Source: a virus
IMG/VR virus record: IMGVR_UViG_3300007516_000057
Span: 1-36,864 of that record
Length of the DNA: 36,864 bases
Strand: one strand, 5' to 3'
Under the pieces are notes generated by a model. The model was not told the origin of the DNA. It searched no databases and saw only the letters and a list, made by a program, of their open reading frames with translations. How positions within the stretch are numbered: the stretch's first letter is position 1; each line of letters begins with the position of its first letter. Below, piece by piece: positions 738-24,534 of the stretch. The translations under genes were made by a program, and so were the position numbers.

Positions 738-743
738 GCCTAC

Positions 744-1448: not shown

Positions 1449-1469
1449 CACTGATGCGCAGAACTAACC

Positions 1470-2436: not shown

Positions 2437-2456
2437 TGTGTCTCCTTCGTGCGTTA

Positions 2457-3289: not shown

Positions 3290-3295
3290 GTGGCC

Positions 3296-3612: not shown

Positions 3613-3619
3613 ATAGATT

Positions 3620-3640: not shown

Positions 3641-3671
3641 TGTAGTCTAGTTCGTGAGCACAAGTTCAATG

Positions 3672-7100: not shown

Positions 7101-7966
7101 CCTTTCGGATAATTCTGGACCGCCTCAAGATTCTTCCAAACCCGATCAGAAAGGTATTCCTCAATGCCGCGTCGCCGTTGCGTTGTTTGTTGTGTCTCGT
7201 CCAGTATTGATGGAAAGTCTTTCTTGCGCATTTCTAAAATACGATTAATGATGCGGTCGCGGCCATCGCGGTCGGCTTCGCGTTCGTCGTCGCCATCCTC
7301 CGCCCATAACAAACTGGTCGGCGGATTTTTTTCTTTGTTCCTTTTGACAACCTCGTCACGCAGCGTGTTCTCGTGGCCCGGGGCATCGGGAACTCGCAAC
7401 CCTCTCTCTTCTATTTTCTTTTTGCGTTCGGCTTCATAACTTTCGTCGGCTAGGTTTTTCGCGTCTTGACGTCTTCTTGCGTACGCGGATCCGTCGTAAA
7501 ACATTTTATTGTTTCCGTCCGCTTCCGTCCTGACCCAAAGATTTCCGGGATCTGGCTTCGGGTTCTCAACGTCCCACTCTTTCATTAGTTCTTGAACCTG
7601 ATCGTACGTGTTATCCTTGTTGCCGTTTTCGCCTTTAATTGTCGACTGTTCCCAATAGTAATCTTTTCGTGCCTGTGTGTGCTTCCGACCCTCCTCCCCC
7701 GAATTGTCTCTATACGAGTCCCCGCTCTCTTGAGTCAGTGTTAGTTTTTCGTTATTGAACACAATCGTGAATTTCAGTTCACCGTTTGGACCCTTAACCG
7801 CCCGCTTATTTTTTACCAACAGGGTTCCCTTGTACAACTCGTCATCCTCTGACCCGGGTCTTACCTCTTCACCTTTTTCGTTTTTATAGTAAGCGCTCTC
7901 AACAGCGACGACTGATGTTCGTGGACCGTAAAGGAGTTCTTTGCGTGTTTCGATTCTAAAAGGCAT
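4160..7966 (-). CDS. Very large, highly charged repeat-bearing protein (1268 aa), probably virion-associated
   Basis: A 1268-residue, extremely Glu/Lys/Asp-rich protein with no recognised enzymatic motif. The first 90 residues look like beta structure. Most of the remainder is long charged helices and probably disordered linkers (a PKEDPKED...KEVPKKED tract around residues 462-482). Near the C-terminus is a (TPK)5 tract followed by a very basic end. The location among late genes and the composition suggest a structural, scaffolding or internal-head protein, but that is inference. The ATG at 7966 has no Shine-Dalgarno sequence; TAACCT lies six bases upstream, as at the two leaderless starts in the left arm. 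Repeat tracts at 4311-4355 and 6521-6580 lie within it. Confidence 0.8.
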   Translation of the reverse strand: MPFRIETRKELLYGPRTSVVAVESAYYKNEKGEEVRPGSEDDELYKGTLLVKNKRAVKGPNGELKFTIVFNNEKLTLTQESGDSYRDNSGEEGRKHTQARKDYYWEQSTIKGENGNKDNTYDQVQELMKEWDVENPKPDPGNLWVRTEADGNNKMFYDGSAYARRRQDAKNLADESYEAERKKKIEERGLRVPDAPGHENTLRDEVVKRNKEKNPPTSLLWAEDGDDEREADRDGRDRIINRILEMRKKDFPSILDETQQTTQRRRGIEEYLSDRVWKNLEAVQNYPKGRLGDVEKETIFRLLQGSLSDRKSPARTQEFMQDLFNVVQQSRVYGGPVPTLPDTPGQKPLRGDILRTATSPIQSYTYEELQQALNANKADLERAIAAGDRFGIEEREHLVKQFEKQIADFPEKEERKRVEEEQKSQRQQLEKKDRKERGLPEDKTKEEKGFYHTPPHMYAPFEEAPKEDPKEDPKEVSKEVPKKEDSLKRTDKTQKDPQGWIPGEVWEALHKGDTDSLNYKEAFRSQNAYWAKWQDGYDHAGRNGTGLVDGWVLQHIPYEIASKLQTQEGQQELLNKGVIEVDQRGRPIFSDSIKKMVEENKKILIKGQVDRVIEDFLMGGEFGQTNTPDINSPNIDMKSFGVANLEEMIVNLINSKYPEIKVDTLVGKLDPSEEEKGDLNQRKKDKRDVPWVEHNRPGWLQDVINAGDLDDKLEAGNLTKEEKDKVLEQSRELRERLREDDLKAEEVADAKKLEKSEKGEDSELIEKSRSDQVDRMRELREKGPTDKAFEDIDKIDEATGVNKEVLKGEFEEDNTGEATKEELDSIERYMTVLTKREMFEDKAENKEIMRLISNMPTSSILKEEIDELNSEPSFSALEDSEKQSFLVRLQKEKIEEYMAMNMAREDPDLMQFIKHKGRALAKRMPGTVEKTKDGDMDPSFIASMENNIFLWIKWQNDRRTGMSYEKFKKKFRTKAINDGLSRSDLEGNNFDEYLTMKRYMMIAAKRSVQKDYYRYTLNGRKYIPTDFSQVGTELKQDELRAMRDGDSNFVDPSGTLSEKGPDNKDLVSGEKILEGAYSTDVEDKNDASYKDILKAVRRDTTPRQEQLIKFLYDYDSPKHYENFVEKAQAKNDGVFTNWTALARGYNEAFKTENKNMEITSTGMKEQYGALSDRVLDLARKNTDWSDRRIPGRAKPEGAGETITPKTPKTPKTPKTPKTPNAEPSVVNKKTEIGNQKKRTPKEQKAWDRLKRGSIASRVRIARLRSKLL
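4311..4355. repeat. Five perfect 9-bp tandem repeats (GGCGTTTTA)
   Basis: Five exact copies, with a degenerate copy on each side, lie inside the 1268-residue gene. Read on the minus strand they encode Thr-Pro-Lys units. Such a tract is prone to copy-number change by slippage. Confidence 0.95.
6521..6580. repeat. Five imperfect 12-bp tandem repeats
   Basis: Units of the form TTTAGGATCTTC vary at one or two positions and encode the PKED/PKEV/SKEV series in the 1268-residue protein. The variation among units shows it is older than the perfect 9-bp repeat near the 3' end of the same gene. Confidence 0.85.
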
Positions 7967-8005
7967 AGGTACAGGTTAAGGTTGGGGATTGGGTCTGTTT
8001 GATGG

Positions 8006-8608
8006 TCAATTTTTCCAGCGGCCTTTAGACGACATGTCGTCCATGTTTTCTTTTTGAGTACCACTAAAAAGATGTCTTGGGTTGCAGCACTTAGGGTTGT
8101 CGCAGGAGTGGCAAACGTAACGACCCTTCTTGAGAGGACCACTGCCCAACTCAAGAGCTATACGGTGAGCATCGCAAATCTTTTTGCCAATTCGAAACTG
8201 CCCATAACCAAGAGATCCACGGGTGCTGTTGATCCACGGCCAACAATCGTTTACCTTGCCAACATCGATCTTATTCCAGAAGCGGCCGAGGTCGTTGTCG
8301 GACAACTTGACTCCACAGGCAATGCGATGACGCATCGCCGACTTCGCTGCTCTAGGAATGTCTGCGCTAGACCTTCTATATCCAAGATCTTCCCAGGGAC
8401 CGTCCTTTGTTGGCTCCTTCGGCTTTAGTTCCGGCTCGGCCATAAACTCCGGGAACTGTTCCCTGGTTATGCGAGACCTTTCCTCGCGAGACTCCTCTAT
8501 TGAGATCTCTCCAGCCATCTGCCTCAAGACTATGGCGCTCATCGCGCTATTGTATTCGCCCTGCCGAGGGTTTCTCGGCTGGAAGTATCCATCATATCTA
8601 CGCGCCAT
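8006..8608 (-). CDS. HNH-domain protein with an unrelated N-terminal domain (200 aa)
   Basis: Residues about 108-197 are a classic HNH endonuclease domain: C122-W-P-W, GYGQF, AHRIALE with H148, [15 protein letters not shown] with N176 and H179, and a C-terminal [12 protein letters not shown] helix. These are the zinc ligands and active-site His/Asn of the family that nicks or cuts DNA. The first 107 residues do not belong to this domain; they resemble a small phage protein with a charged helical region. It is either a fusion or an HNH inserted into a host gene. No Shine-Dalgarno sequence precedes ATG 8608. The sequence TTAACCTGTA directly upstream also occurs before the 7966 start. Confidence 0.85.
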
Positions 8609-8633
8609 ACAGGTTAAGTGTAAGGAAGTTCCT

Positions 8634-8825
8634 CTATTCCTTGCCGAAACCCTCCATGTAAAGTTCTCTTGTGGTCTTCACTGCGACGGATCCTGTTCCT
8701 GACTCGCTGCTGCCTGTAACGATTGATCTTGGCAACTTAGGATCCGGCGTGGGATCTTCAAGCGGTAACGTCGGCACTGGGGACGGAGGAGCAATTTTCT
8801 CGTCTTCCGCTTTGGGCTTAATCAT
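8634..8825 (-). CDS. Hypothetical Pro-rich protein (63 aa)
   Basis: A 63-residue protein with a Pro-rich, probably disordered centre ([20 protein letters not shown]) and a short charged C-terminus. The ATG at 8825 is chosen because it has GGAGAA upstream and overlaps the stop of the membrane protein gene. The longer frame to 8873 would read through that gene. Function unknown. Confidence 0.5.
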
Positions 8826-8973
8826 TGATTTTTCTCCAAATAAATAGAATCGCCACAAAAGCGGCGGACGCAATAGTTGCTACTGCGATTTTGTTGATCT
8901 TGATTTCTTCCTTGCTCGGAATTGGGGAACCTGTCTCTGGATTTCGAGCAACGACTCTCTGCGCGATCCTCAT
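8818..8973 (-). CDS. Small single-pass membrane protein (51 aa)
   Basis: A 51-residue ORF starting at ATG 8973, linked to the upstream gene by ATGA and overlapping the next gene by eight bases. Residues 1-26 are basic and polar. Residues about 27-46 (NKIAVATIASAAFVAILFIW) form one transmembrane helix, ending with RKIND. The coupling, the ribosome-binding site AAGGAC and the clean hydrophobic segment make it credible. The position before a Pro-rich small protein is faintly reminiscent of lysis cassettes, but I have no further support. Confidence 0.55.
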   Translation of the reverse strand: MRIAQRVVARNPETGSPIPSKEEIKINKIAVATIASAAFVAILFIWRKIND

Positions 8974-9167
8974 GGCTTGTCCTTTTTGAAATCTCGAACG
9001 ATTGCGTTGAACTGTATCCTATCACGGAAGAAGGCGTCAAGGCAAAACTCCCCGCAAAACTCGTACTCCTCTTCGTTTTTATCTGGGGACGAAATAGAAT
9101 AGAACGTAATCGCAGACTGGCTGGTTGCCCCTACGGGCTTCTTGCATTTGAAACATTTCTTTCGCAC
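8970..9167 (-). CDS. Small zinc-finger-like protein (65 aa)
   Basis: A 65-residue protein with CFKCKK at residues 5-10 and CGEFC at about 38-42, two CxxC/CxxxC knuckles typical of a treble-clef or MYM-like zinc site. It probably binds one zinc ion. Start is GTG 9167, overlapping the previous stop as TAGTG, with no strong ribosome-binding site. Specific role unknown. Confidence 0.55.
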   Translation of the reverse strand: MRKKCFKCKKPVGATSQSAITFYSISSPDKNEEEYEFCGEFCLDAFFRDRIQFNAIVRDFKKDKP

Positions 9168-9604
9168 TACTGATTAAAGCGATGTTTTCTAATCTTTTCA
9201 TAGACGTCTTCGCCAACATAGTCTCCACTTATCTTTATTGTGAAGTATGTTGGTATGCAGCCTATCTCTTTGAACGTCTTAAAAGCAATTGTAGAGCATA
9301 TTTGATTCGCCACATTGTACTTGTTGCACATTGAGTGGTCGCCATCGAGATGCTCAAAAAACGATTCATCGTTTGGATCGAAATCCAAAACAAAATTGAC
9401 CTCATGTGTCCCAGGAGTAACCGCCTGTAGCGTTTCCTCTTCTTCGTCTTCTGGCTCTGGTCTTGGAATCAAAACGGCAACACCAGAAGTTATGGGGATG
9501 TCATAGTGTTTCGCAATAGCATCGATAATGTCACCGACCTCCTCAGTTTCAAACTGGGGATCGACAATGCCAAAAACCATATGAACGGAGAAGATGGACT
9601 TCAC
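9167..9604 (-). CDS. Hypothetical acidic protein (145 aa)
   Basis: A 145-residue protein with predicted alternating strands and helices and an acidic loop (PEPEDEEEE, about 49-57). I do not recognise it. The start GTG 9604 follows the previous stop, with a GGAG eleven bases upstream; an internal ATG eight codons later is an alternative. It sits among small genes between large virion-like proteins. Confidence 0.55.
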   Translation of the reverse strand: MKSIFSVHMVFGIVDPQFETEEVGDIIDAIAKHYDIPITSGVAVLIPRPEPEDEEEETLQAVTPGTHEVNFVLDFDPNDESFFEHLDGDHSMCNKYNVANQICSTIAFKTFKEIGCIPTYFTIKISGDYVGEDVYEKIRKHRFNQ

Positions 9605-9607
9605 GGA

Positions 9608-10030
9608 TCATACTTCTCCGCAGTAAAGAAGCAAGGAAACGTAGTGACCGAACAGGAGAGGAAGATCAAGGTCTTCATCCGAGATATTGACAGTTGGGGT
9701 GTTGACAACGAAAGAGTTGTCTTCGTTCTCAGACCCAAGGAGCACATAACCGCTTGAGCGAATGAAATTGCGATGACGCTTGAGGCTGAGATTGCTTTTG
9801 TCCTCAACACAGAACGAGTAAAGCCCTCTGTCCGAGAACTGCAGAAGATCGTCTTCTTCTCGGTAATAGGCAAAAACAGAAACCTGCTGGTCAACACTGA
9901 AGTTGAAGAAAGGAGTTTCGATCCTGAACACAACAACATCTTCACCTGGCTGGTCCGCCATGTGTTCAACTTTCACGCCCGGGATGGAGGACTTAAGAAG
10001 GTCTTCGATCTTTTTAACAGTTTTGCTCAT
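9608..10030 (-). CDS. Hypothetical protein with faint DUF1828-like pattern (140 aa)
   Basis: A 140-residue protein. The order 'i-TPF-f-f--d--v-v-a-y---dd-l-fsD-Gl' (about residues 40-75), followed by a KRHRNFIRSSGY helix, resembles DUF1828-like domains found in phage and restriction-associated proteins. The match is by memory and weak. The start is ATG 10030, coupled by ATGA to the 48-residue ORF upstream and preceded by GGGGAGAAAA. A longer frame to 10042 is less likely. Confidence 0.5.
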   Translation of the reverse strand: MSKTVKKIEDLLKSSIPGVKVEHMADQPGEDVVVFRIETPFFNFSVDQQVSVFAYYREEDDLLQFSDRGLYSFCVEDKSNLSLKRHRNFIRSSGYVLLGSENEDNSFVVNTPTVNISDEDLDLPLLFGHYVSLLLYCGEV

Positions 10031-10173
10031 TTTTCTCCCCAAACATGATCAAAAATAAGGGTTTTAATCTCCTTGCTTTCTTTTTCGTCTTCACTGTCGC
10101 GCCAAGTTGTGTAGGAGTCGGGATCGTTGAGCAGATCCTCAATCGAGTCCTTGTTAGATTTACGATTTTTCAT
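10027..10173 (-). CDS. Small charged ORF (48 aa)
   Basis: A 48-codon ORF from ATG 10173 to TGA 10027, ending in ATGA overlap with the next gene. It is rich in Asp, Glu and Lys. No ribosome-binding site is obvious. It fills a gap between two certain genes, which is the main argument for it. Function unknown. Confidence 0.45.
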   Translation of the reverse strand: MKNRKSNKDSIEDLLNDPDSYTTWRDSEDEKESKEIKTLIFDHVWGEK

Positions 10174-10199
10174 GATCGCAGACTACCAAACTTATTTGA

Positions 10200-12617
10200 T
10201 TATATCAAGTCGACATCTTTAATTGGTATCCAAAGCTTTATGTAACTGTGGTTTGGTTCGTTTGTTTCAAGTTCGTGACGAACCAACAAGAGTCTTTCCT
10301 TTGGGTCAACAGCCTGAATGTCTACCTCACCGCCGATAGGGATCATTCCGTAAGTGCTTCGCTCTTCCATTGAGTGACCCATTTCTCCGATCTCTGGGTG
10401 GTATCCAAGATCGTCTGGACCGTACACAAACGAACCGTCAGACTTCATTGATGTGGGAATCGCGTCTGGATGTGGGTGTAGACCTCCGCGCTGTTCCCCC
10501 CACACGTCTCTGCGGACATACGCTTTTGGCTTTTTGTTTTGAGACAGTTCAGACTGAATGTAAATTGTGATGTCGTTTATTGAAATATCGAAGGACAGAA
10601 CGGTGACGCCTGTGTGGGCAGCAGATATTACAGTCCTTGTGTACTCTTTCATAACTGGATTGCCGTTCTCGTCTAGAAGCGGGGTTCCGTCGGGACTCAA
10701 GGCTGGGCGCATTTCCGTAGTAACTACGTCAGGCGCTTTAGGGCTATATCCCAGTTCAGCTTCGCGCCTCTCTCGTTCCTCGGTCATTTTAATAACGACT
10801 CTGCCGGGGACTTGCGGATCCCCATTCTCTTTACGAAGAGCGTTAGCTTCTTCTTCTGCTTTAATCTCTTTTACGCGCTCTTTGTATTCGTTTTTACTTC
10901 CGTTGTTTTTCAACCACTCAAGTTCTTTACGAACGTCCATCGTCTTAGAACCAGACTGATCTTCGAACGCAGGAAGTGGTGTTTTAGTATTTTCTTCCTG
11001 AAACGGGTTAACATCAATCAACATAGCCATTAGCATATCGGTTATTAGACGTTTAATCTTTTTGATCTGCTTGTCTACTGGTCGGTCGGTTTGATCGGGA
11101 TCGTCTCTGGGATCCGGCGTGAGATTCCTTCGCCTCCTCGGAGCGGACGGGTCATCGGGGTCAGGATCATCGTACCGTGGCACTGTTTGTTTGCGCTTCT
11201 CCTCTTCAAGTTCGACAAGATTCTTCATAAGTTCAGAAATTTCTGATTCTGGTCTAATCATTTTCTTCAAGGTGAGAAATATACGCAAACGATCATTTCT
11301 TTTCTTGATGTCGCCATTAAGTTTTCTAATCTTATTGTTTAATTCGTTAGTTAACCGCGTCTTCTCTTTCTTTTCTTCTTCCTTTTCCTCTTTAGTTTCT
11401 CCCTTTCCTTTTTCATTTTGAACTTTTTCAATCTTTTTTTCTTTAGAAGACCGGTCTTCATTAAGTTTTTTAAGTTCATCTTTTATCTCTTCGATTATAT
11501 CGTCATAGTCTTCGTCGCCCCACTTCTGAACTCCATCAAATATCTCCTCATTAATAAACTCTCTTAGTGCCGGATCGTCTAGAGTCATCTGAACGGCCTG
11601 ATTGGGATTTCCCACAGACTCGCCAAGACCTTCAAGTCTTGCCCTCTGACTTTCAAGTTTGTCCTCAAGATCCTTGATCTCGTTGATGTCACCACCTTCT
11701 AGATCCTTTATCTTTTCTTCAATTTTTCTAATCTCCCCCCTTACTTCGTCAGGAGTAATACCGCCCGGGCTTGGCGTTCGTTTGCGTCTCTCGTCTTCTA
11801 AAGACTTAAGTTCTTTTCCTATTTCTTCTTTTCTTGTTTCTATTTCTTCTCTTCTTGCTTCTCGTTTGTTCTTGTCTACCTCGTTATTTTCAAGATTTGC
11901 AAGTTCGTCTTCAAGTTTTGCAAGTTCATCTTTTAGTGCTTTTTCTTTCTTTTCCAAAGAGGAAGGACCAACAGCGTCTTGATCTGCCTTGTCGAATTTT
12001 TCTTTACTGAGATCGCTTAGAATTTCTCCGTCTTGACCAAACAAATGCCCCTGATCGACCAGCGTTTTAAGATCCCTTGCGAGAATCTCTGGCGGAACGT
12101 CTTCATAAGATACATTTATTCCTGACACGACCCACCAAGCAGCAAGAACATGAGAGCAGATACGACCTTCAAATTTCTTATTGATCTCTCTTCTAATCCC
12201 AGCCCGATCAACTATGTATATAGGGCTTCTGTCCCAGACATATCTTCGCCAAGCGCATTGGCAGTCCCACCAGCGGATCGCTCTGCTGCGAGGGTGCGGC
12301 TGATGGATCAGCACTTGGTAAGACCCGTGATCTCCCTGGACTCGCGCCTTAGACTCGATAACGTTTGTTGGGTCGTGAGTATCGTACGGCCTCTTATGAA
12401 TGGGGACGACTCCGCCAGAACTAACGATGCGTTTTGCCTTTCGCTCAACATCAACCCACTTCGCTTTATGCTGAACACGGCCAAGCTTTTCGATATCTAC
12501 ACAGCCGTTATTGTGAAGATCGTACTTGACTGGGTCGAAGAGATACTCTCGCTCTTCGTCTTCAAGTTGAGAGTCAGGCTTGTCCCAAGCGGATGCCTTT
12601 TCAAACAGGTCAAGCAT
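10200..12617 (-). CDS. SWIM zinc-finger and long coiled-coil protein (805 aa), probably virion-associated
   Basis: The N-terminal 165 residues contain a SWIM-type zinc motif: an AKRIVSSGGVVPI strand, a YQVLIHQPH strand, then DCQCAW (C119, C121) and, after an insert, GRICSHVLAAWW (C154, H156). SWIM domains mediate DNA or protein binding. Residues about 215-480 are Lys/Glu-rich coiled coil. A Pro/Asp/Arg-rich linker follows, and the last 150 residues look globular with beta strands (VTVLSFDISINDITIYIQ). I take ATG 12617, with GAAGG six bases upstream, over the TTG two codons earlier. The gene overlaps the C2H2 gene. A structural role is inferred from position, next to other large late genes. 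Confidence 0.75.
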   Translation of the reverse strand: MLDLFEKASAWDKPDSQLEDEEREYLFDPVKYDLHNNGCVDIEKLGRVQHKAKWVDVERKAKRIVSSGGVVPIHKRPYDTHDPTNVIESKARVQGDHGSYQVLIHQPHPRSRAIRWWDCQCAWRRYVWDRSPIYIVDRAGIRREINKKFEGRICSHVLAAWWVVSGINVSYEDVPPEILARDLKTLVDQGHLFGQDGEILSDLSKEKFDKADQDAVGPSSLEKKEKALKDELAKLEDELANLENNEVDKNKREARREEIETRKEEIGKELKSLEDERRKRTPSPGGITPDEVRGEIRKIEEKIKDLEGGDINEIKDLEDKLESQRARLEGLGESVGNPNQAVQMTLDDPALREFINEEIFDGVQKWGDEDYDDIIEEIKDELKKLNEDRSSKEKKIEKVQNEKGKGETKEEKEEEKKEKTRLTNELNNKIRKLNGDIKKRNDRLRIFLTLKKMIRPESEISELMKNLVELEEEKRKQTVPRYDDPDPDDPSAPRRRRNLTPDPRDDPDQTDRPVDKQIKKIKRLITDMLMAMLIDVNPFQEENTKTPLPAFEDQSGSKTMDVRKELEWLKNNGSKNEYKERVKEIKAEEEANALRKENGDPQVPGRVVIKMTEERERREAELGYSPKAPDVVTTEMRPALSPDGTPLLDENGNPVMKEYTRTVISAAHTGVTVLSFDISINDITIYIQSELSQNKKPKAYVRRDVWGEQRGGLHPHPDAIPTSMKSDGSFVYGPDDLGYHPEIGEMGHSMEERSTYGMIPIGGEVDIQAVDPKERLLLVRHELETNEPNHSYIKLWIPIKDVDLI

Positions 12618-13725
12618 TGGCAACCTTCTCCTTAATGCTTTTTCCGCCTTTTGTTTCTATTATGTAAACATGCTTGATTTCATATTCGGGATGCATTTGA
12701 TCCCAAAGATGCATAAGATGGCTGATGGTATAAGGAATCGTTGCTTGAGCAGTAATCAACAGATCGCCGTCTGGTGTGTAATACCCCTCGGCCAATCCGA
12801 AAGCGTTTGACTGATCGATCTCAACTCGTTCATCGCCTGGCTCTCCAACATAGATTCGATCATCTTCGACATCATAGGAGAAAGGAATAGGACCTTCAAG
12901 TTCTGCTTCCTTCTTCTTCTTAGTTGCAGACATAAGCATGATGTCGTCGCCAGACGGTCTGCTGGCCTCGTTGTCGTAGCTGTCGCCGTTGATGCCGCCC
13001 TTCTCGTGATACTCGTACTCGGGTCCTGTTTGGTCCTTTTTTATGTGTTCGGACGAATGATCCAGCATCTCGCGATAAGACTCAAAGACCTTTCTACAAT
13101 TCGGACACTGATACGCGGTATCGGTGAGACCGTACTCGACTATTCTTAGATCTCCCTGGCCAGGAAATTTACCCCTGTCGTTGTCTTGAATTTGAATATC
13201 AGTCGCGGGGTCTCTATCAGTCAGCGGCCAATCCTTGGGAACGGTTTGCCAACCAGAGCCGGGATCTGACGACGTTCTTCGCGTGTCGATGGGGAACGGG
13301 ATTCCGTTCTTGTCCTTCATAGACTGAAGTTCCAACCTATGGTTCCGTGGTTCGTTGCTGATCGATGGGTTATTGGCCCAACGCTTAAAAACGTTGAACA
13401 AGACAACAAGATCAATGTTCGTTTCTTCAACAAGAACGCTCAGAGTCCATCTTGTAGTTATCTCTAGAGTGCCAACGCCGAACGCATTGAAATGATCCCT
13501 CTGAGCACCAACGGACGCAATTGCTCCGTCAATCATGTCAAGGTCCACGACCTTAAGATTCTTTACGTTCTGACCAGAAAGAACCCAACCATATGTCTCA
13601 GACATAGAGGTTGGCATTTTGTGATACTGATGGCTTTCCTCCTGGTTCTGGAGTTCGTTCGAAGTTTCGCCAGTATACGGCGTGGTGCCCCAGCCCTGAT
13701 CAGATTGTTTGTGAATTTTGCTCAT
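12610..13725 (-). CDS. C2H2 zinc-finger-containing phage protein (371 aa), possible structural protein
   Basis: A 371-residue protein. Residues about 50-115 look like a beta-rich domain (VLSGQNVKNLKVVDLDMIDG...TLEITTRWTLSVLV). Residues 207-227 are a textbook C2H2 finger, C207-x2-C210-x12-H223-x3-H227, with an aromatic at the usual place. The C-terminal 85 residues are again beta-rich. C2H2 fingers bind DNA or protein and are uncommon in phage virion genes. The start is ATG 13725; AAGAGAG lies about 13 bases upstream, so initiation signals are weak. Its position between the portal block and the SWIM protein suggests a late, perhaps head-associated protein. Confidence 0.7.
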   Translation of the reverse strand: MSKIHKQSDQGWGTTPYTGETSNELQNQEESHQYHKMPTSMSETYGWVLSGQNVKNLKVVDLDMIDGAIASVGAQRDHFNAFGVGTLEITTRWTLSVLVEETNIDLVVLFNVFKRWANNPSISNEPRNHRLELQSMKDKNGIPFPIDTRRTSSDPGSGWQTVPKDWPLTDRDPATDIQIQDNDRGKFPGQGDLRIVEYGLTDTAYQCPNCRKVFESYREMLDHSSEHIKKDQTGPEYEYHEKGGINGDSYDNEASRPSGDDIMLMSATKKKKEAELEGPIPFSYDVEDDRIYVGEPGDERVEIDQSNAFGLAEGYYTPDGDLLITAQATIPYTISHLMHLWDQMHPEYEIKHVYIIETKGGKSIKEKVANA

Positions 13726-13748
13726 AAGAAAAAGACTCTCTTACTTAT

Positions 13749-13943
13749 TTATTCTTCGTCAGAAAGAGATAGCAAGTAGAGAGCCTTCTTGGGATCACCG
13801 CATTTGATCGCCGCTTCTGCAACACGCAGATCGATGTTGAATCGACCAGCGATGTCCGACGCAGCGGCAGATTCCCATCCAGCTTTAATGAGAACCTCCT
13901 TGCGCCAAGAGACCACTTGCTGTTCCTTGTCAGATGTAGCCAT
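13749..13943 (-). CDS. Small helical phage protein (64 aa)
   Basis: A 64-residue all-helical protein with a GWESAAASDIAGRFNIDLRVAE core followed by a GDPKKALYLL helix. I have seen this 'aGw...Aa-iA-rf-iDl--Ae-li--Gd---Al-iL' pattern as a recurrent small protein near head genes of actinobacteriophages; function unknown. Start is ATG 13943, or the GTG immediately before it. Confidence 0.6.
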   Translation of the reverse strand: MATSDKEQQVVSWRKEVLIKAGWESAAASDIAGRFNIDLRVAEAAIKCGDPKKALYLLSLSDEE

Positions 13944-13949
13944 CACCTA

Positions 13950-14126
13950 TTAAGGCGATGACTCTCGCTTCAATGAGTGTCGGCTCGGAGATCCGCCCGC
14001 ACCGACAATACTTGAGACACCAAAAGAAAAAACCCGTGTCCATTTGTTCTTTTTATTCGGTGGAACATCGTACGCTTCTGTCGTCGCAATATTCCCTTTT
14101 TCGTCTATCCACTCATAGGTCGGCAC
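13950..14126 (-). CDS. Hypothetical small protein (58 aa)
   Basis: Within a longer open frame, the GTG at 14126 has GAGGG about eight bases upstream and overlaps the end of the preceding gene by 14 bases. This yields a 58-residue protein, PTYEWIDEKGNIATTEAY..., with a basic Ser/Arg-rich tail. Its N-terminus resembles the short strand-turn segments of small phage proteins, but I recognise no family. Confidence 0.5.
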   Translation of the reverse strand: MPTYEWIDEKGNIATTEAYDVPPNKKNKWTRVFSFGVSSIVGAGGSPSRHSLKRESSP

Positions 14127-14412
14127 GAATGGGTCCCTCGGTTTTAGAACCCTGAACGTATTCGCGCAGATAGCGATTGATGATTTTGTAAGCGTTTCTC
14201 GCAGGTCGTAGAGCGGCACCGTCGTACTCTTCACGCTCAAGTTCAGAAAGAATCTTGAGAATGTCAGTTTGCAGATCATAGAGAGCGCGGCTCTCAGGAG
14301 CAAGCGAAGGCTTTTTTCGTGGCTTCTTGATGCCGCCCTTGGGGACTCTTTGAATCTTGAAAGGATCCCCAAAAGGATTCAGCGGGTCTTTATAATAATC
14401 ATCTTTAGACAT
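14113..14412 (-). CDS. Hypothetical protein (99 aa)
   Basis: A 99-residue protein with a basic, Pro-rich N-terminal part (GGIKKPRKKPSLAP, about 26-39) and a helical C-terminal half. ATG 14412 overlaps the preceding stop. Possibly nucleic-acid binding because of the basic patch; no family recognised. Confidence 0.55.
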   Translation of the reverse strand: MSKDDYYKDPLNPFGDPFKIQRVPKGGIKKPRKKPSLAPESRALYDLQTDILKILSELEREEYDGAALRPARNAYKIINRYLREYVQGSKTEGPIRADL

Positions 14413-14662
14413 CTTCTCCTTCTTTCTCTTCCTCGGCTTCCTCTTCGTCTTGATGAATGCCGAACACGTAATCCTTCAAGAAGCCAGAGAGTCTCTCGTG
14501 AACTCTTACCAACTCATTCGTAAGTGGTCGATATTTAACTGTTTGCTGGAGGTTGTTATACGCCTCTGCAACGTCCTCAGATTGATAAGCGCTAGAAGAC
14601 AGGTGCAGAATTGCTATAACGTCCTCAAGATCCTCGACAGGAATGTTGACCATCTTATCCAT
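14405..14662 (-). CDS. Hypothetical acidic helical protein (85 aa)
   Basis: An 85-residue helical protein with a strongly acidic C-terminal tail (QDEEEAEEEKEGED). It is coupled by overlaps on both sides. Function not recognised. Confidence 0.55.
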   Translation of the reverse strand: MDKMVNIPVEDLEDVIAILHLSSSAYQSEDVAEAYNNLQQTVKYRPLTNELVRVHERLSGFLKDYVFGIHQDEEEAEEEKEGEDV

Positions 14663-14996
14663 TCTCGTTCATCCATTCTGGCGTGGGTGGTGTAACAAAA
14701 GAGACCGCAACGATATCTTTAAGAAGAATCGCCTTCTTGTTGTAGTCCTTGTCGGTAAGAAAGATGAACGTCATGTTGCGATCATCGGACAGAGAGTCCC
14801 ACCAAGTGGCAACGAAAGACATCATGTGGTTAAGACTCTTGATCGGGTCTTCCTTTTGGAAAAAGAATATATGTTCCGCGAACAACGGTTCGGATCGATC
14901 TCTTAAATACACAACCATCTCAATCGGGACACGATAAACCTCTTCGTCCATCAAGTCTTCCTCAAAATCCATATCGTCTCCGTATGCGTTATCCAT
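14655..14996 (-). CDS. Hypothetical protein (113 aa)
   Basis: The ATG at 14996 is chosen because it overlaps the preceding stop by eight bases with AAGG immediately upstream; the open frame to 15107 would overlap the previous gene deeply. The protein has an acidic N-terminus (about 1-20), then an alternating strand/helix region with FFFQKEDPIKSL and MTFIFLTDKDYNKKAILLKDIVAV. This could be a small alpha/beta fold. No family recognised. Confidence 0.5.
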   Translation of the reverse strand: MDNAYGDDMDFEEDLMDEEVYRVPIEMVVYLRDRSEPLFAEHIFFFQKEDPIKSLNHMMSFVATWWDSLSDDRNMTFIFLTDKDYNKKAILLKDIVAVSFVTPPTPEWMNENG

Positions 14997-15240
14997 CCTT
15001 GGCCTCGTTGTTGTTGTAGTCCACAAGGCGTAGAAAACCACCACAAACTCCGCAGACAAATAGGTTCTGCGGCTGTCCATTTCGGATGGTCGATCCATGG
15101 TCTTCAATCACCCAGTCAATCGCAGAGATTGGGTGGGGGCATCCTGTGTTTGCGACACTGCCGGTTTTCGCTCTAGCCGCTTCTCTGGCACGAATGATCG
15201 CCGCATCTGGGGAACTGATATGCTTAAGAAAATCAGTCAT
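14989..15240 (-). CDS. Small zinc-binding protein (83 aa)
   Basis: Start ATG 15240 overlaps the DUF3310 gene's stop by eight bases. The protein carries CPHP around residue 33 and LFVCGVCGGFLR around 61-72. Together these make a plausible CxH plus CxxC zinc ribbon. The same layout is common in small phage proteins of unknown role. Confidence 0.55.
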   Translation of the reverse strand: MTDFLKHISSPDAAIIRAREAARAKTGSVANTGCPHPISAIDWVIEDHGSTIRNGQPQNLFVCGVCGGFLRLVDYNNNEAKDG

Positions 15241-15649
15241 CCATAAAGCCCTTAGTGTAGTTCGATTTGGCTTCCTTAATGGCTTTGGCTTTGGTGTTTT
15301 CAATCATGCTGATGTAGCGGTCAAGATACCAAGAAGCCTTCTTGAGATCCTCAAGCTCCTTGCCCTTGCGCTTGGCGCGAGCAACATATTTTACAACGTT
15401 ACCGAGATGGTAGGGGAGACCCCAGGCCTCAATGACATCAATGACCTCGTGTGGACCGAAGTCATAGTGCGGAGGATGATTGACCATATCGACAACAGCA
15501 ACTCCCGTTATCGAAACGTCAACCCCGCTCGAAGCGTTGGCGCTTTTCGAAGACTTGCCCGTCGAGGCGTTGCTTGTGCCGCGTTGCGAGTATGTGCCGC
15601 ACCACATCGCTCCTGTTGTCGACTGGGGGACTCCACGACCCGTTGTCAT
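15233..15649 (-). CDS. DUF3310 family phage protein (138 aa)
   Basis: Residues about 56-118 match the DUF3310 pattern: VNHPPHYDFGPHEVIDVIEA, then GLPYHLGNVVKYVARAKRKG, then EDLKKASWYLDRYI. These short proteins are widespread in tailed phages and are sometimes labelled nucleotide kinase, although I know of no firm evidence for that. ATG 15649 is joined to the preceding gene by ATGA. The first 50 residues are Ser/Thr/Gly-rich and unusual for the family, so translation may start later. Confidence 0.8.
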   Translation of the reverse strand: MTTGRGVPQSTTGAMWCGTYSQRGTSNASTGKSSKSANASSGVDVSITGVAVVDMVNHPPHYDFGPHEVIDVIEAWGLPYHLGNVVKYVARAKRKGKELEDLKKASWYLDRYISMIENTKAKAIKEAKSNYTKGFMDD

Positions 15650-15873
15650 TCTTTCTGCCCCTTGAGTTCAGCATATCCGTCTTCAACATAGCCATCAATG
15701 TCCTTCTTGAGGGCTTCACGACGTGCTGCGATAAAAGCGTTGACCTTTTCGTCAGGCTCATCAATAACCGCCCACGTTTCTGAACGGCTTTCGGAAACAT
15801 CGGCAGACTGATAATTGCCAAGATTTACCTTTACGCTTGCTCGATACGAAATTGTTATCTCTCTGAGTTCCAT
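15646..15873 (-). CDS. Small phage protein of 'VNLGNYQS' type (75 aa)
   Basis: A 75-residue protein with an N-terminal beta-hairpin (EITISYRASVKVNLGNYQSADV) and a helical charged C-terminus. Small phage proteins with a 'kvnlGnYe--dv' strand recur near replication or nucleotide genes, but I know of no function. ATG 15873 directly follows TAATG overlap with the previous ORF and has AGGAGG upstream. Confidence 0.6.
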   Translation of the reverse strand: MELREITISYRASVKVNLGNYQSADVSESRSETWAVIDEPDEKVNAFIAARREALKKDIDGYVEDGYAELKGQKE

Positions 15874-16049
15874 TAGGAGACCTCCTGCGCCTTTTCTTCG
15901 CGCTTCGTAGTGTAAAGAAGGCGAATACCTTCCTTATTGTCCACACTCCTGAGAACGCCCTCTATGGCTCTCTCAAGAGCGTCTACCGTCCCCTGTGGGA
16001 TCGGACCGCCGTTCATGTTCCAAATTGTAGAGTATAGGTACTCGGTCAT
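15873..16049 (-). CDS. Small hypothetical protein (58 aa)
   Basis: A 58-codon ORF from ATG 16049 to TAA 15873. It is joined to the phosphoesterase stop by ATGA and to the next start by TAATG. A short aromatic N-terminus (MTEYLYSTIWNM) leads into a helix. Both junctions are tight, so I believe it is real; no function recognised. Confidence 0.6.
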   Translation of the reverse strand: MTEYLYSTIWNMNGGPIPQGTVDALERAIEGVLRSVDNKEGIRLLYTTKREEKAQEVS

Positions 16050-17071
16050 GCGTAAACAAGCTCCTGGTCGTAGACGTTGCCATAGAATTTTCCGCCATAG
16101 ATGTATCCGTTGTGGACGGCTCGGACAAGTTCCACATGGTAGTTCTCTGTTTTAGTGGAGAAATGACACACCGCGATGCCCGGCTGCCAGTTGGTCTCAC
16201 CAATCTTGTAGTCGGCATTGCGAGAACAGAGACAGCCTTGCTCGTACCACGTCAGGTTGCGATAGCCGAACTTAGGATACTCGGCCATGCGGTGCGTGTG
16301 ACCCATAAGTCCCGAGATAAGGGTGCTGCTTAGACGAGCCTTGGCCGATGCTCCTGCCTCACCACGAACGATGTGACCATGCTCAAAAACGAACTCAGGA
16401 CGAATACGATGACCGCTACGACCAAATAGCGTTATTTCGAGCTCGTCAAGACCGAGGAGAGCCTCCGGCTTAAGCGCTCTAAGGCTAGACAGAGATCTTG
16501 CATTGTTCTCGATATACGAGAGAATTCTTTCATCATGATTTCCAAGGTTCTCTCTGATCGTTGCGTTGGGAATAATCTCTCTCGCAGCTTTTCTAAACTC
16601 AAAACCCATATCGATCTCGTCTTGTAGGTCATCAAGGCGCTCAAGTCCTTGATTAAAACGAGATAACTGGAAGAAGTCATTTACATCGCCGTTGATCACA
16701 AGAACGTCCGGCTGGATGTCTTGAATCAGAATAAGCGTAGACTCGAGCAATTGCTTATTGTGGTAGGGGAAATGAATATCCGAGACAGACACAACGGTCT
16801 CAAACAAATCGTTTGTTGTCTGCTCAAGCAGGGGAGCAACTCCCTCCCCCCACTTCTCCGTGTCTGGGACTACAAAACCCGAACCCGGAATGAAACGACC
16901 TGTCCTGTTCCTGAGAGTGCGATATTCAGCGACACGAGAACGAAGACCAGAAATTGATCCTACCTCAACATCAAACTCGCTTTTAATCATTTCTGACAGG
17001 TCTTGCCACGATGGCTTCGTGGAGTACTTTTGCTTTTGTTCTATGCAAAAGTCGAGAATTTCTCTATTCAT
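16046..17071 (-). CDS. Calcineurin-like metallophosphoesterase (341 aa)
   Basis: All five blocks of the binuclear metallophosphoesterase fold are visible in order after a helical N-terminal region of about 90 residues: SDIHFP (D-x-H), INGDVND (G-D), GNHDER (G-N-H-D), FEHGH, and GLMGHTHR (G-H-x-H). Such enzymes hydrolyse phosphomono- or diesters with two metal ions. In phages they are often found near head or replication genes with unknown substrate. The N-terminal region contains a short HTH-like segment. ATG 17071 has AGGA nine bases upstream and lies right behind the portal gene. Confidence 0.85.
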   Translation of the reverse strand: MNREILDFCIEQKQKYSTKPSWQDLSEMIKSEFDVEVGSISGLRSRVAEYRTLRNRTGRFIPGSGFVVPDTEKWGEGVAPLLEQTTNDLFETVVSVSDIHFPYHNKQLLESTLILIQDIQPDVLVINGDVNDFFQLSRFNQGLERLDDLQDEIDMGFEFRKAAREIIPNATIRENLGNHDERILSYIENNARSLSSLRALKPEALLGLDELEITLFGRSGHRIRPEFVFEHGHIVRGEAGASAKARLSSTLISGLMGHTHRMAEYPKFGYRNLTWYEQGCLCSRNADYKIGETNWQPGIAVCHFSTKTENYHVELVRAVHNGYIYGGKFYGNVYDQELVYA

Positions 17072-17072
17072 G

Positions 17073-19190
17073 TTATTCCTGAGTGAGTTTGAAGGAGCGA
17101 GGACTCTTCGCTAGGGTAGCCCTCTTTATAGCAGACTCTCCGTCAGGATTCAAGTCTGGATCAACTTCATATTCAAGTTTATTAGCAATAGAACTCGCCC
17201 GGTTGTACTGAAGACCGGGACGACGCTCATTGCTAATGTCAGGAACCGGACCATCGCCCGGAGTAACGGGACCAGCCGGTGGAGGACCGCCCATTGGAAC
17301 CGCCCCACCCATGCCGCCGGGGCCAAGCATATCTTCTGGCATATTAGGCATTGGGATAGGACCGCCGCCCGGAGAAGGAGGCATGCCTGGAGCGCCCTCT
17401 GGGCCACCCATACCGGCAGCCATGCCGCCATCAGGATTCATGGCAGCAATCTCAGCCTCAAGCGCTGGTGGCACCGGAAGCCCCTTCGCCTTAAGAATCT
17501 TGTAGGAGTCCATCTTTGCTTCTTGCGAGGAGATCGTCTTCATGATCATCTCCTTCTCCATACGATCAAGAGTCTCCTTGAAGTCAAAGTTGACGCCAAC
17601 CATCATGTGCTGGTCAGCGATTGGCACACCCATGGAGCGCAGCGTCTGGAGGAACTGACGCTCTGTTGCCTCGTCGCGCATGTCAAGAACTGCCATTTCC
17701 ATATCAGGTATTAAAAGTTTTCTTCTGCGCTCGATGCGAAAGCCGTTTTTTGCTTCAGGATCTTCCACAACAACCTCTTCGAAGATCGGAACTCTTGTGT
17801 GTCCCTTCTTCTCATAGTCGTAATATTCGTGAGCCTCAGCCACAACCATCGCTCTATCTCGGTAGTGATTCTTTAGGTAGTCTTGATAGGTGCGAAGCAT
17901 TTGATTCATGAATTCAGCCTGCAGAGCTGAAGACGCATACGGCTGAGAACTAGATCCGCCGCCAAGAAGCGATGGATTGATTCCAAAGACCTGCATAAGA
18001 CGACGCTCAATCTGCTGGAAGTCCTCCCAGAGATTCGGCATCTGCTCTCGGCCGAAGACGCTAGTGACCTCAAGACCAAAATGGTGAACGAGAAGACGGA
18101 AGTCTGAAGACAGAGCAATGTCCATGTCGTCACGGAACTGTTCAAGATCTTCTGGACCTGGGATCCATGGACCCTGACCGTCACCAAGGTCGGTGGCACC
18201 GAGTTTGGCAAGAATGAGGGGAGAATAAAGGCGCTCTGCGATAGCGTCCTGCGATGCGAGCAACTTCTCTTCATGAATGAGGGTGCGGAGCCCACGAAGC
18301 AGGATCGGGGTACCGTGGTCGTCCCACGGATTTGCCCTGAAAGCGATCTGCTTCAGTAGAACGTCGGAGACGGGGAAGGCTTCGCTCCGCTCCAAGTATG
18401 GAATCAGATCCCCGTAGTGCTGAACGAGGAGTTTGTACTCATCGTTGGGGTTCTTAGTGCGAGCAAGACGCTTGAGGTACTCTGGAGGGACGATCTTGAT
18501 CTGCTTGGACCCAAGGAGCGGGAAGTTCTGGATGATCACATCTTCAGGATTAATCAGTTCCTCGCGCTCCCACGTTCCAAGATGCTCGTTGAACGAAGCA
18601 AGAGGGAAGGCTTCACCAATTGTCCAGTACTCACGACCCAAAGAGACAAGAAAGTCTGGGTAATTGAGCTGACCAAGAAAGACTTCCTCGTAAAACCCTG
18701 TGAGCTGGTCGTCCTTGGACGTAAGGGACATCCCAGCAAGAGGGAAACGTGTGAAGATATCAACAAGGATAGGAACAAGATAGTGCGTCATGTAGTAAAG
18801 ACGCATCCACTTGTGTAGTTTGTGGCGATGCCCCTCGTCAGCCATGTTCCACGGAAGACCAGAAAGATCCCAGTACTCCATTGGGTCATAAAAACGAGGA
18901 ATGGCAGCATATGCGTCACTGCCACCGGCACCGGATCCAACCTTGTGCATTCTGGTGCTACGAACAGCACGGGCGAGACGCGAGTTCTCTCGCATTATCT
19001 TCGTGGTTGCTTCGTTGTCCCCACTGGCAATACGAGTCAGGTCCGACTTCATGGACCGAGACGACGCCATGCCATGCATGTCCTGCACGGTCATTACGGC
19101 GCGAAGCGGATTTTTGGGAAGAACGAGGTTCTGTTTTTTAAGCCTGTTCAGTTCCCGATCCAAATTCGATGTGCGGATTTTCTTTTCCAT
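17073..19190 (-). CDS. Portal protein (705 aa)
   Basis: The middle of the protein has the look of a portal: FRANPWDDHGTPILLRGLRTLIHEEKLLASQDAIAERLYSPLILAKLG, then a helical LWEDFQQIERRLMQVFGINPSLLGGGSSSQPYASSALQAEF segment, the hallmark long helices of this ring protein. Portals form the dodecameric DNA channel at one head vertex and bind the terminase. The length (705) is at the large end for the family. Residues about 590-665 are a Met/Pro/Gly-rich low-complexity tail, unusual for a portal. The location downstream of the terminase supports the call. The ribosome-binding site is weak. Confidence 0.8.
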   Translation of the reverse strand: MEKKIRTSNLDRELNRLKKQNLVLPKNPLRAVMTVQDMHGMASSRSMKSDLTRIASGDNEATTKIMRENSRLARAVRSTRMHKVGSGAGGSDAYAAIPRFYDPMEYWDLSGLPWNMADEGHRHKLHKWMRLYYMTHYLVPILVDIFTRFPLAGMSLTSKDDQLTGFYEEVFLGQLNYPDFLVSLGREYWTIGEAFPLASFNEHLGTWEREELINPEDVIIQNFPLLGSKQIKIVPPEYLKRLARTKNPNDEYKLLVQHYGDLIPYLERSEAFPVSDVLLKQIAFRANPWDDHGTPILLRGLRTLIHEEKLLASQDAIAERLYSPLILAKLGATDLGDGQGPWIPGPEDLEQFRDDMDIALSSDFRLLVHHFGLEVTSVFGREQMPNLWEDFQQIERRLMQVFGINPSLLGGGSSSQPYASSALQAEFMNQMLRTYQDYLKNHYRDRAMVVAEAHEYYDYEKKGHTRVPIFEEVVVEDPEAKNGFRIERRRKLLIPDMEMAVLDMRDEATERQFLQTLRSMGVPIADQHMMVGVNFDFKETLDRMEKEMIMKTISSQEAKMDSYKILKAKGLPVPPALEAEIAAMNPDGGMAAGMGGPEGAPGMPPSPGGGPIPMPNMPEDMLGPGGMGGAVPMGGPPPAGPVTPGDGPVPDISNERRPGLQYNRASSIANKLEYEVDPDLNPDGESAIKRATLAKSPRSFKLTQE

Positions 19191-19257: not shown

Positions 19258-21207
19258 TTATTTCTTCTTTTTCTCTAGATGTTTCGCTACCGAACTCATC
19301 ATCTGATCAAGATTCTTCTGGGTTCCTGGGAAAACGGAGTCCCCAATTTGGACCTTCTGAGGATTGCGCATCGGCTGAGGTTTTGGCATTATTCCAACTG
19401 CTGGGACGTGAGTAATGCCAGTAGCCGGATCGTACCTCATGCCCTTTCTTTTGGCTTGTTGTACCCGTCTCTTGTGTACTCCGGCATCGTAATCAGCATC
19501 AGCATCAGCATCAGCATCAGCAGCCGGATCGGCTTTATAGCCAGGAGGATACAGCCCAGCAGGATCGTGGGGGATTTCGGCTTCCTCTGTCTTCGGTGAC
19601 CATGAGCCATTGTCATAGATCCAAGTCTGGTCGCCTTGATCCATTGTGTCGCCCTGCAAAGGGGCGTTCATGATTTGTTGTAGCGAGCGAGCACCGTCAG
19701 GGGCTTGCTCTTCCATCTCTTCTGGCTCGACATCAGCGCTGACTGGAACGTCGTCAACAAACTCAGCCTCTGCGTCTTGGTCAGCCATCATAAGATCGGA
19801 CTTCGCGTTTTCGAGAAGAGGAGCAACGTCATCACTCCTTTCAGGATGATTTTCAAGAATGCCTTCTAGCATCGAAACCATATCCCTCTTAAGACCAAGT
19901 TCCGTTATATCAACAGACGTCTTCACGCCAGAGACAGCAGAGATGTTCATTGCTTCACTGATCATGCTCTCGTATTCTGCCGTTTTCTCCTCGCCATAGC
20001 GATCTTGCCAAATTGCGAGAAGAGTGTCCGCGAAATCTTGTGCGCTTGCAAACTGATTGCCCAAAGCTTGATACAGACTCGAAACGCCTTCAGCCGACGG
20101 AGCGTCAGCCTCGTTCGACAGTTCGATGTCTGCCGGATTTTCTGGGTCCCAAGAGGATGTCCAGTGCTTAGCTGCCCATTCGGGATGATGGTTCACGTAT
20201 GTCCAAACGCTGTCTTCTGCCTCGTGTTTAGGCATGCCCTCTTTGTGGAGGTAACTGATCGCTTCAGACGGCTTCATCATTTCAGAAAGCGTATTGAAGT
20301 CCATCGCTTCTGCGGCTCTTTTGATCAATGCCGCATTTACTGGTCGGTGCTGCTCGTTACGATGGTTCTTCCAGTTAGGATGGTTGTAGCCCCTCTCCCA
20401 ATTAGAAGCGTACAGTTCATCACGAGTTTTTCCATGATTCTTGTCCTCTTCTGCTGGTCGCATGTAGACACCACCACCCATTCCTCCAGCGGGTGGCAAT
20501 TCATCAAGTTCAGAATGTTCGTTACTATCCTCAACAGAATTAAAGCCGACTAAAGGGTAATCGCTATACTCGCCCTCGTCCTCCTCGTCCGTATCTTCGT
20601 CCTCTACTGCGGTATTGCTAGTAACTGGATCAGCCTGGCCCTTATTGGGGAAGGTGCTAGTTGGGGGACCGACCTGTTCAGCCTTCTGTTTTAACACGTC
20701 GACGCGCTTGCGACCTTCGCCTTCGTCGGGGAGATCGCTGTCATGCGGCCAACCCTTCTCTGTAACGTCCTGACTCTCGTCGGGCTCAAGTCCTGGAATA
20801 GCCGGATTGGTGTTGTGCGTGTTGTCACCAGACGAACCAGGATTCAACTTAGGCGACGGATCTGTGTAGTAACCATCAGGATCTTGCGTCTTTAGTTTCT
20901 GTGTTTCGTCTGCTTTGCCTTCAGACTCTGGACTTGCGACAGAAAAGAGTTCCAACTGACCAAGCACAAGACGAGCGATGTGTTGGAAGTCGTCGTATCC
21001 ATACTCGCCGCAAGTGTCGATTGCGATTTTAAGAATTTCCTCTTCAACTAGAGCGATGCGAGCATTAAACTCTTTTACGCCCTTGGCTTCTCCAACGAAC
21101 GCACCGAAACGACGCTCAGAGCGATCAATAGCGATAGCGGCAGCGTTCTTGAAAGGAAGGTTCTCTTCTTGGGCTTGCACCTCTAGGTATTCGAACAGGT
21201 CACTCAT
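19258..21207 (-). CDS. Large acidic protein between terminase and portal (649 aa)
   Basis: A 649-residue protein of unknown function. The N-terminal 105 residues are helical. Residues about 105-260 are Asp/Glu/Pro/Ser-rich and probably disordered. A central part (about 260-420) contains an aromatic VWTYVNHHPEWAAKHWTSSWDPENP segment. The tail has an (Ala-Asp)5 tract followed by a basic region. I recognise no family. Packaging-module position and composition suggest a scaffold or accessory head protein (inference). ATG 21207 has GAGGGA eight bases upstream. Confidence 0.65.
   Translation of the reverse strand: MSDLFEYLEVQAQEENLPFKNAAAIAIDRSERRFGAFVGEAKGVKEFNARIALVEEEILKIAIDTCGEYGYDDFQHIARLVLGQLELFSVASPESEGKADETQKLKTQDPDGYYTDPSPKLNPGSSGDNTHNTNPAIPGLEPDESQDVTEKGWPHDSDLPDEGEGRKRVDVLKQKAEQVGPPTSTFPNKGQADPVTSNTAVEDEDTDEEDEGEYSDYPLVGFNSVEDSNEHSELDELPPAGGMGGGVYMRPAEEDKNHGKTRDELYASNWERGYNHPNWKNHRNEQHRPVNAALIKRAAEAMDFNTLSEMMKPSEAISYLHKEGMPKHEAEDSVWTYVNHHPEWAAKHWTSSWDPENPADIELSNEADAPSAEGVSSLYQALGNQFASAQDFADTLLAIWQDRYGEEKTAEYESMISEAMNISAVSGVKTSVDITELGLKRDMVSMLEGILENHPERSDDVAPLLENAKSDLMMADQDAEAEFVDDVPVSADVEPEEMEEQAPDGARSLQQIMNAPLQGDTMDQGDQTWIYDNGSWSPKTEEAEIPHDPAGLYPPGYKADPAADADADADADYDAGVHKRRVQQAKRKGMRYDPATGITHVPAVGIMPKPQPMRNPQKVQIGDSVFPGTQKNLDQMMSSVAKHLEKKKK
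19492..19521. repeat. Five perfect hexanucleotide repeats (ATCAGC)
   Basis: Five exact tandem ATCAGC units (GCTGAT on the coding strand) inside the 649-residue gene encode an Ala-Asp repeat. Because the unit is six bases long, a slippage event would change length without shifting frame. Confidence 0.95.
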
Positions 21208-22629: not shown

Positions 22630-23967
22630 TCATCTGGCTTTAGGTCTGTTCCTGTAATCCATAGATCTTGTCGGTCCTGAACCAGTCTTTTTTGCATTTT
22701 TGTAATAGTCTTCAAAACTCCTGTCTCTACCGAGACCGTAGCCGCCCGGAGCGCCGTACTTCAGACCAGTCTTTAGACCCGCCATTATGCCTGGGCCTCC
22801 ACCAAGAATTATGGATGTGACTTCCGCAATACAATCGGAGATGTCCTTTGTTTGAACGGGTCCAAGATCTTGCTTGTCGACTCTTCCGTTTCTGATTTGA
22901 AGGAACTTCATTTCCATTTTTGTATATTCAGAGTCTGGACAATCAACGGGGATATGAACTAGATCAAGATTTATAGCAGTCTTTAATGATTCGTACTTTT
23001 GCATGTTGATCACCGCCGTTGCTGTCTTTTCAATAACTCTTGTGCTTATCTTGTTTTTCATCAAACGATTGCGCATGCTCTGAATCAAAACGTTTGAGTA
23101 GTATTGATCGAAACTCAGTTCCACAGGGCGAAAGACTCGCATCCATTGCAGAATTTCGTCAAGTACGGTTTCGTAGTGAATCGTTTCGCCAGGGAAGTCT
23201 TTCGGATTCCAGCGTTTCACAACATCAAAAACAACATGCGGTTCTGGTTCGCCGTCTTCGCCTGCGAACTCTTGCATGTGACCAATGGCAAACCCGAATC
23301 CGGCAGTTGTAGACGAGGGATCGCAATGAGCAAAATACTGATACGTGTACGTTCCAGACGTTTGCATCCTGACGGGGGTGTCTTTAAAACTGGAAACAAA
23401 TGCTCGTTCGACATTCTCCGCATTAAGGAACGAATCAACGACCTCGGCCCACTGGCCGCGCCTCTCGACCTTAAACTTCTCGGGGTTCGCCTTTTCCGAC
23501 AGTTCTGCCTCTCGCGCCTTGTCCTTGTCGTCCGGGCTTAGCTTGTCGTGGTCTCCGTCGGGCGAAACCATGATCGCGCTTTTGAACCTTTTACCTGGAT
23601 CCTTTTCGTAGTCTCTATAGAGTTCCCAAGACGGGAACTGAAAACTAAGAAGCGTTGGGAACTTCGCCATATCGTCGACAACCTGATGGCTTTGCAGAAA
23701 CCTGTCGTAGAAGAATCCAATCTTCGTGTATGGCGAAGAGTTCAAAAAGATCATTCCGTCTTTTCCGAACTGAGCAAGCGAAGGTTCTGCCGCGTAATAG
23801 CACTGTTCGAGAGACGAAGAGTTCCCCTCGGTGCTTGTCATGAATGCGGCCTCATCGAAAACAACAACCATTGTGGCAGAACCACGGATGGAGTCAGCGT
23901 TTGCCGACTTGGGAACACCACGAATTTTGGAGAAGTCTCTGCCGATCTTCATTCCCTTCATTCTCAT
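22630..23967 (-). CDS. Terminase large subunit, C-terminal part (Walker B and nuclease)
   Basis: The listed frame starts at ATG 23967 (445 aa), but the same frame is open and conserved-looking up to the TGA at 24052-24054. The true coding part is therefore 473 codons after that stop. MVVVFDEAAFM (D38, E39 from the ATG) is Walker B of the packaging ATPase. FAHCDPSST (D216), ELSFDQYYSN (D287) and DISDCIAE (D378) are the three acidic residues of the RNase H-like nuclease that cuts concatemeric DNA. No ribosome-binding site or start codon occurs between the TGA and ATG 23967. As annotated, this half would lack Walker A. Confidence 0.9.
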   Translation of the reverse strand: MRMKGMKIGRDFSKIRGVPKSANADSIRGSATMVVVFDEAAFMTSTEGNSSSLEQCYYAAEPSLAQFGKDGMIFLNSSPYTKIGFFYDRFLQSHQVVDDMAKFPTLLSFQFPSWELYRDYEKDPGKRFKSAIMVSPDGDHDKLSPDDKDKAREAELSEKANPEKFKVERRGQWAEVVDSFLNAENVERAFVSSFKDTPVRMQTSGTYTYQYFAHCDPSSTTAGFGFAIGHMQEFAGEDGEPEPHVVFDVVKRWNPKDFPGETIHYETVLDEILQWMRVFRPVELSFDQYYSNVLIQSMRNRLMKNKISTRVIEKTATAVINMQKYESLKTAINLDLVHIPVDCPDSEYTKMEMKFLQIRNGRVDKQDLGPVQTKDISDCIAEVTSIILGGGPGIMAGLKTGLKYGAPGGYGLGRDRSFEDYYKNAKKTGSGPTRSMDYRNRPKAR

Positions 23968-24051
23968 CTGAGCGAGATACTGTTCATCTGCAGAGGTCTT
24001 AAGAGTGAACGTCTCTTCTTGAACCTTTCCGATATGTGGCTGAAGATGACG

Positions 24052-24054
24052 TCA
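24052..24054 (-). other. In-frame TGA between the two terminase halves
   Basis: Reading minus-strand codons through the junction gives ...ACT CGT TGA CGT CAT..., with the amino-terminal and carboxy-terminal terminase parts in the same frame on either side. It is a single stop codon, not a frameshift. The TGA-C context is a comparatively leaky one. Confidence 0.85.
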
Positions 24055-24534
24055 ACGAGTAATGACCGACACGAGGTCGGCGTACTGATACGCCTTTGCC
24101 TGCGTAAGAGCAGTAGCCAGACACATAAAGTAGATCTCTTTGTCTGGGTCAATACTGTAGTACCGACCTGGGTCGCCCAACTTCCAAGTGTCGAACATCT
24201 TCTTGCCTACGGCAAGAGACGTGACATAGCCCTTAGAGGAGCGACGACCACCAACCAACTGGACTTCTGGAAAATTCTGATAGCCATTCTCTCTCAACCA
24301 TTCTGTTTGTTGTCTAACCATTGGAGAAATTATTATTTCCCCGTCTGGCGCAAGCCAACCATTAAGAATATCTTCTTCCCACCCCTCCAACTCTTCCAAG
24401 AACATGGTCTTTAGTAAAACCTTTTGTCTTGGATAGAGAGGCTTGTTACAGAACTGGTCGCTTTCTGCGAATTCAACAATGCTGACTTTTGTTGTATCGA
24501 AAGCTCGAAGGACCTGATCTGCGAGAATAGACAT
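24052..24534 (-). CDS. Terminase large subunit, N-terminal part (Walker A)
   Basis: This 160-codon frame encodes the start of the packaging ATPase: LYPRQKVLLKTMF (adenine-binding region, about 33-45) and FPEVQLVGGRRSSKG (Walker A, 95-102, with Lys101). It ends IYFMCLATALTQAKAYQYADLVSVITR, typical of the strand and helix that follow Walker A. On its own it lacks Walker B and the nuclease and would be inactive. It continues in the same frame past a TGA into the 22630-24051 region, giving about 634 residues in total, a usual length for the family. ATG 24534 has AAAGG four bases upstream. Confidence 0.85.
   Translation of the reverse strand: MSILADQVLRAFDTTKVSIVEFAESDQFCNKPLYPRQKVLLKTMFLEELEGWEEDILNGWLAPDGEIIISPMVRQQTEWLRENGYQNFPEVQLVGGRRSSKGYVTSLAVGKKMFDTWKLGDPGRYYSIDPDKEIYFMCLATALTQAKAYQYADLVSVITR

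Follow-up and report, generated by a model that had tools for sequence, protein, structure and literature searches.

The large terminase is essential for packaging. In Bxz1-like and related actinobacteriophages (Tonenili, Finch, Stormageddon and Pupper) its gene is annotated as a single uninterrupted frame, and the same protein, at 30-33% identity, can be followed along most of its length in a phage contig from an environmental metagenome, an uncultivated viral record whose 36,864 bases we refer to as the window. Unlike the genes of these phages, the terminase gene of the window is broken by one in-frame TGA. Three further records, IMGVR_UViG_3300032223_001985, 3300043446_003411 and 3300021519_000046, are like the window in their terminase (79-80% identical) and in the neighbouring genes, but have a Cys codon where the window has the TGA. 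We take this lone TGA to be, most plausibly, an error of sequencing or an isolated nonsense mutation rather than a new control mechanism.

An in-frame TGA in the terminase gene

The large-terminase frame occupies 22630-24534 on the minus strand and comprises 634 codons; translated from 24534 to 22630, it yields 160 codons, the TGA as codon 161, and 473 open codons before the terminal TGA at 22630-22632 (Table 1). A sequence-only reading of this DNA had placed the Walker A half and the Walker B/nuclease half in one reading frame, separated by the TGA alone, and both the translation and an alignment of the whole protein bear this out. Residues 18-630 of the read-through protein align with the annotated terminase of Rhodococcus phage Finch (33% identity, E 9e-95), the C-terminal part by itself matches the PHROG family phrog_9, terminase large subunit (E 3e-7), and the full-length ORFs of close viral contigs can be aligned with the two halves as a single protein. 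Since the two parts align jointly to annotated terminases as well as to the ORFs of relatives, it is not by chance that they lie side by side. The locus therefore has the homology of a phage large terminase subunit along both halves, while a single uninterrupted frame holding Walker A, Walker B and the nuclease domain is prevented by the stop between the two Walker motifs.

The neighbouring genes, which include those for a portal protein, a UvsX-like recombinase, DNA polymerase III alpha, a primase-like protein and a DnaB-like helicase, fit, as expected, a tailed phage that encodes replication proteins of its own. Two long genes of the window (19258-21207 and 10200-12623) are only partly conserved among close relatives and possibly encode host-interaction proteins.

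Table 1. Features of the interrupted terminase gene, in window coordinates
Feature	Position	Strand	Basis
Large terminase, N-terminal 160 codons, with Walker A-like motif GGRRSSKG	24055..24534	-	Translation; aligns jointly with the C-terminal part to annotated terminases and to relatives' intact ORFs
In-frame TGA at codon 161, where every close relative has a Cys codon	24052..24054	-	Translation; alignment of relatives
Large terminase, C-terminal 473 codons and TGA stop, with Walker B VVVFDEAA, NSSP motif and nuclease domain	22630..24051	-	Translation; phrog_9; homologues
First in-frame start codon past the TGA (ATG 23967), without evident ribosome-binding site	23965..23967	-	Sequence inspection
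RNA hairpin predicted over or immediately past the TGA (-14.1 kcal/mol, z -2.2), not common to relatives and probably incidental	24008..24053	-	Folding

Codon 161 in relatives and homologues

Four close viral contigs match the C-terminal half at 77-79% identity, and three of the four cover the site of the TGA. The terminases of relatives G001-G003, 79-80% identical to that of the window over the full protein, are uninterrupted and have TGC, TGC or TGT at this position; the gene of a somewhat more distant locus (L031, 68% identity) is likewise open and has TGC. Among 77 other homologous loci, a set that contains some near-duplicates, codon 161 specifies Cys in 45, Ala in 16, Gly in 14 and Ser in 2, and is a stop in none. 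These counts include a correction: the raw alignment gave Cys 42, Ala 16, Gly 14 and Ser 5, but three of the Ser calls came from terminases with a misaligned intein-like insert, of which one (L047), read directly, has Cys, and the other two share its aligned sequence. The residue at this site in homologous terminases, which the sequence-only reading had proposed to compare, is thus Cys, Ala, Gly or Ser, with TGA in the window only; no homologue is split here into two separate genes, the arrangement that would have spoken against that reading. Within the matched part of the homologues' terminase genes, internal stops were confined to one relative that reads TGA as sense, described below. A degenerate DNA pattern search, over records from which those nearest the window may be missing, found no second TGA allele, its matches being two relatives already known, and a scan of genome contigs found no relative.

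The intein-like insert, of about 240 residues, lies just before the NSSPYTK motif in L047 (1174-3813) and also occurs in L048 and L106; its ends are apparently of the splice type, and it has no Pfam match.

Recoding, genetic code and re-initiation

The rival explanation that fares best, improbable as we judge it, is programmed or tolerated readthrough, in which a leaky UGA-C, perhaps aided by a 3' hairpin, would give rise to little full-length terminase. A UGA followed by C is generally known as a leaky stop context, the frame downstream of the stop is conserved, and a hairpin is predicted directly 3' of the TGA. However, in four relatives the corresponding stretch shows no more stable folding than its shuffled versions, no convincing common fold was obtained for the five sequences (the window and these four relatives), and no Rfam family was found in the window, where chance matches to eukaryotic snoRNAs, far below threshold, were the only ones. 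Both marks of a programmed readthrough gene are thus missing at this locus, in that a stop is conserved in 0/77 homologues and the stimulatory structure 3' of it does not recur in the four relatives. In addition, the split falls inside the ATPase domain, leaving a short product without evident function. Within the literature covered by our search, we found no report of terminase readthrough. More generally, we give little credence to a TGA that is real and fixed, with the terminase made only by rare UGA decoding, be it near-cognate readthrough or selenocysteine, so as to limit packaging-motor levels. Of the options that the sequence-only reading had listed, a nonsense mutation and a base-call error are therefore the ones we favour, whereas readthrough as a means of limiting terminase levels finds no support, as the homologues have no stop and the hairpin is unshared.

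The pairing of a TGA with a conserved Cys made it worthwhile to test for selenocysteine, that is, decoding as Sec of a UGA standing in place of the Cys codon, which we find highly improbable. A published search for bacterial selenoproteins relied on such TGA/Cys pairs with conserved Cys homologues, combined with a downstream hairpin bearing a guanosine in its apical loop (PMC1088965), and the window offers both the pair and a stem-loop directly after the TGA. None of the folds within 6 kcal/mol of the optimum, however, contains a hairpin that has both the spacing expected and a G in its apical loop; by our home-made criteria, with size and spacing limits that we set ourselves, SECIS-like hairpins occurred in 42 of 100 shuffled sequences, versus none in the window. 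Bacterial Sec mostly stands in for redox-active Cys (PMC1794560), whereas no redox role is known for this terminase site, which is Ala or Gly in other homologues, and the contig carries no tRNA-Sec. We rejected selenocysteine on the absence of a SECIS-like fold.

An altered code, with phage or host reading TGA as an amino acid (Trp), has a precedent in a distant relative, L026/L109 (IMGVR_UViG_3300015371_000242, 1-19024; 19 kb, 47% G+C, 38% identical in the polymerase gene). On this fragment about ten genes contain TGAs in frame, the terminase gene having two such codons, the genes end in TAA or TAG, and the plus strand of L109 has 11 TGA versus 64 TGG. Several of the TGAs, found in the genes for the terminase and for RecA-like and RuvC-like proteins, stand at conserved positions where the window or its relatives have Trp. 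It probably reads TGA as Trp, and no tRNA, suppressor or other, was found on the fragment. It resembles the window in having in-frame TGAs in the terminase, but there they are at other positions and TGA is sense in many genes, while the site of the window's TGA is a Cys codon. Its reading of TGA does not explain the TGA of the window. In the window, 13 of 30 likely genes end in TGA, and for several genes, the terminase itself among them, the terminal TGA of the window is replaced by TAA or TAG in the orthologues of relatives. The 10,459 codons of these 30 genes contain this single in-frame TGA and no other in-frame stop of any kind. The exchange at gene ends and the single occurrence indicate that TGA is a real stop in this lineage, as the sequence-only reading had concluded from TGA ending other genes. 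The window thus lacks the traits of a TGA-sense code, namely disuse of TGA as a stop and its in-frame presence in many genes, and Trp occurs at codon 161 in no homologue. An altered code was rejected on stop usage and is, in our estimate, scarcely credible. No tRNA genes were found in the window, and a cluster of them is present in a 57 kb relative (G002; L020 3500-7089).

Equally hard to credit is a two-gene terminase produced by re-initiation past the TGA, which we rejected for the absence of a start signal near the stop: although the downstream part is open for 473 codons, in agreement with the earlier reading, our in-frame scan places the next ATG, GTG or TTG at ATG 23967, which lies 28 codons downstream with no evident Shine-Dalgarno before it, the break falls between Walker A and Walker B and not at a domain border, and no homologue is split here.

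A probable base error or recent nonsense variant

The TGA is observed, the homologues are intact, the code is standard and recoding signals are lacking; from this we infer that the TGA is very probably a single isolated base difference, either a consensus error or a recent nonsense variant, in an otherwise intact and conserved terminase gene. One base change, lying either in the data or in the phage that was sampled, would have turned a Cys codon into a stop. The most likely origin is an error in the consensus or base call, with somewhat better than an even chance in our estimate; a nonsense variant that is real and recent in the genome sampled is less likely, and we entertain it tentatively. 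In the latter case a defective variant may have been assembled, in which translation would end after residue 160 and, barring rescue, there would be no functional packaging motor. As the terminase is essential, a fixed nonsense allele would be lethal without such rescue, which favours an error or a defective minority variant.

The state of the gene is consistent with this. Of 137 near-invariant columns, the terminase of the window departs from the consensus at 5, counting the TGA, which is within the range of its relatives, and it contains no frameshift or second stop, indicating that the gene has not been decaying. With the rest of the gene conserved, any inactivation would be very recent. 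In a dN/dS comparison of the two halves, synonymous sites are saturated, which leaves the similar dN values as the only informative part. By our computation, a random substitution in coding sequence yields a stop in about 4.2% of cases, so that a 37 kb contig needs only a modest error rate to acquire one; given a few base errors over 31 kb of coding DNA, a single stop is unremarkable when many contigs are scanned. A scan of other loci for lone stops returned too many false matches in G+C-rich contigs to give a base rate.

Three observations weigh against an error or mutation. The main one is that a TGA at a well conserved Cys codon represents a minor route, about 2% of the possible nonsense routes and 11% of the routes to TGA. 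Moreover, no other obvious gene damage is present on the contig, which thus gives no visible sign of a high error rate, and the hairpin 3' of the TGA (z -2.2) is specific to the window.

Were the TGA real and fixed, an essential phage motor would here depend wholly on stop-codon recoding, which would be unusual. As the evidence stands, the lone TGA mainly illustrates that, before any mechanism is claimed, single stops in metagenomic phage genes need checking against both relatives and reads.
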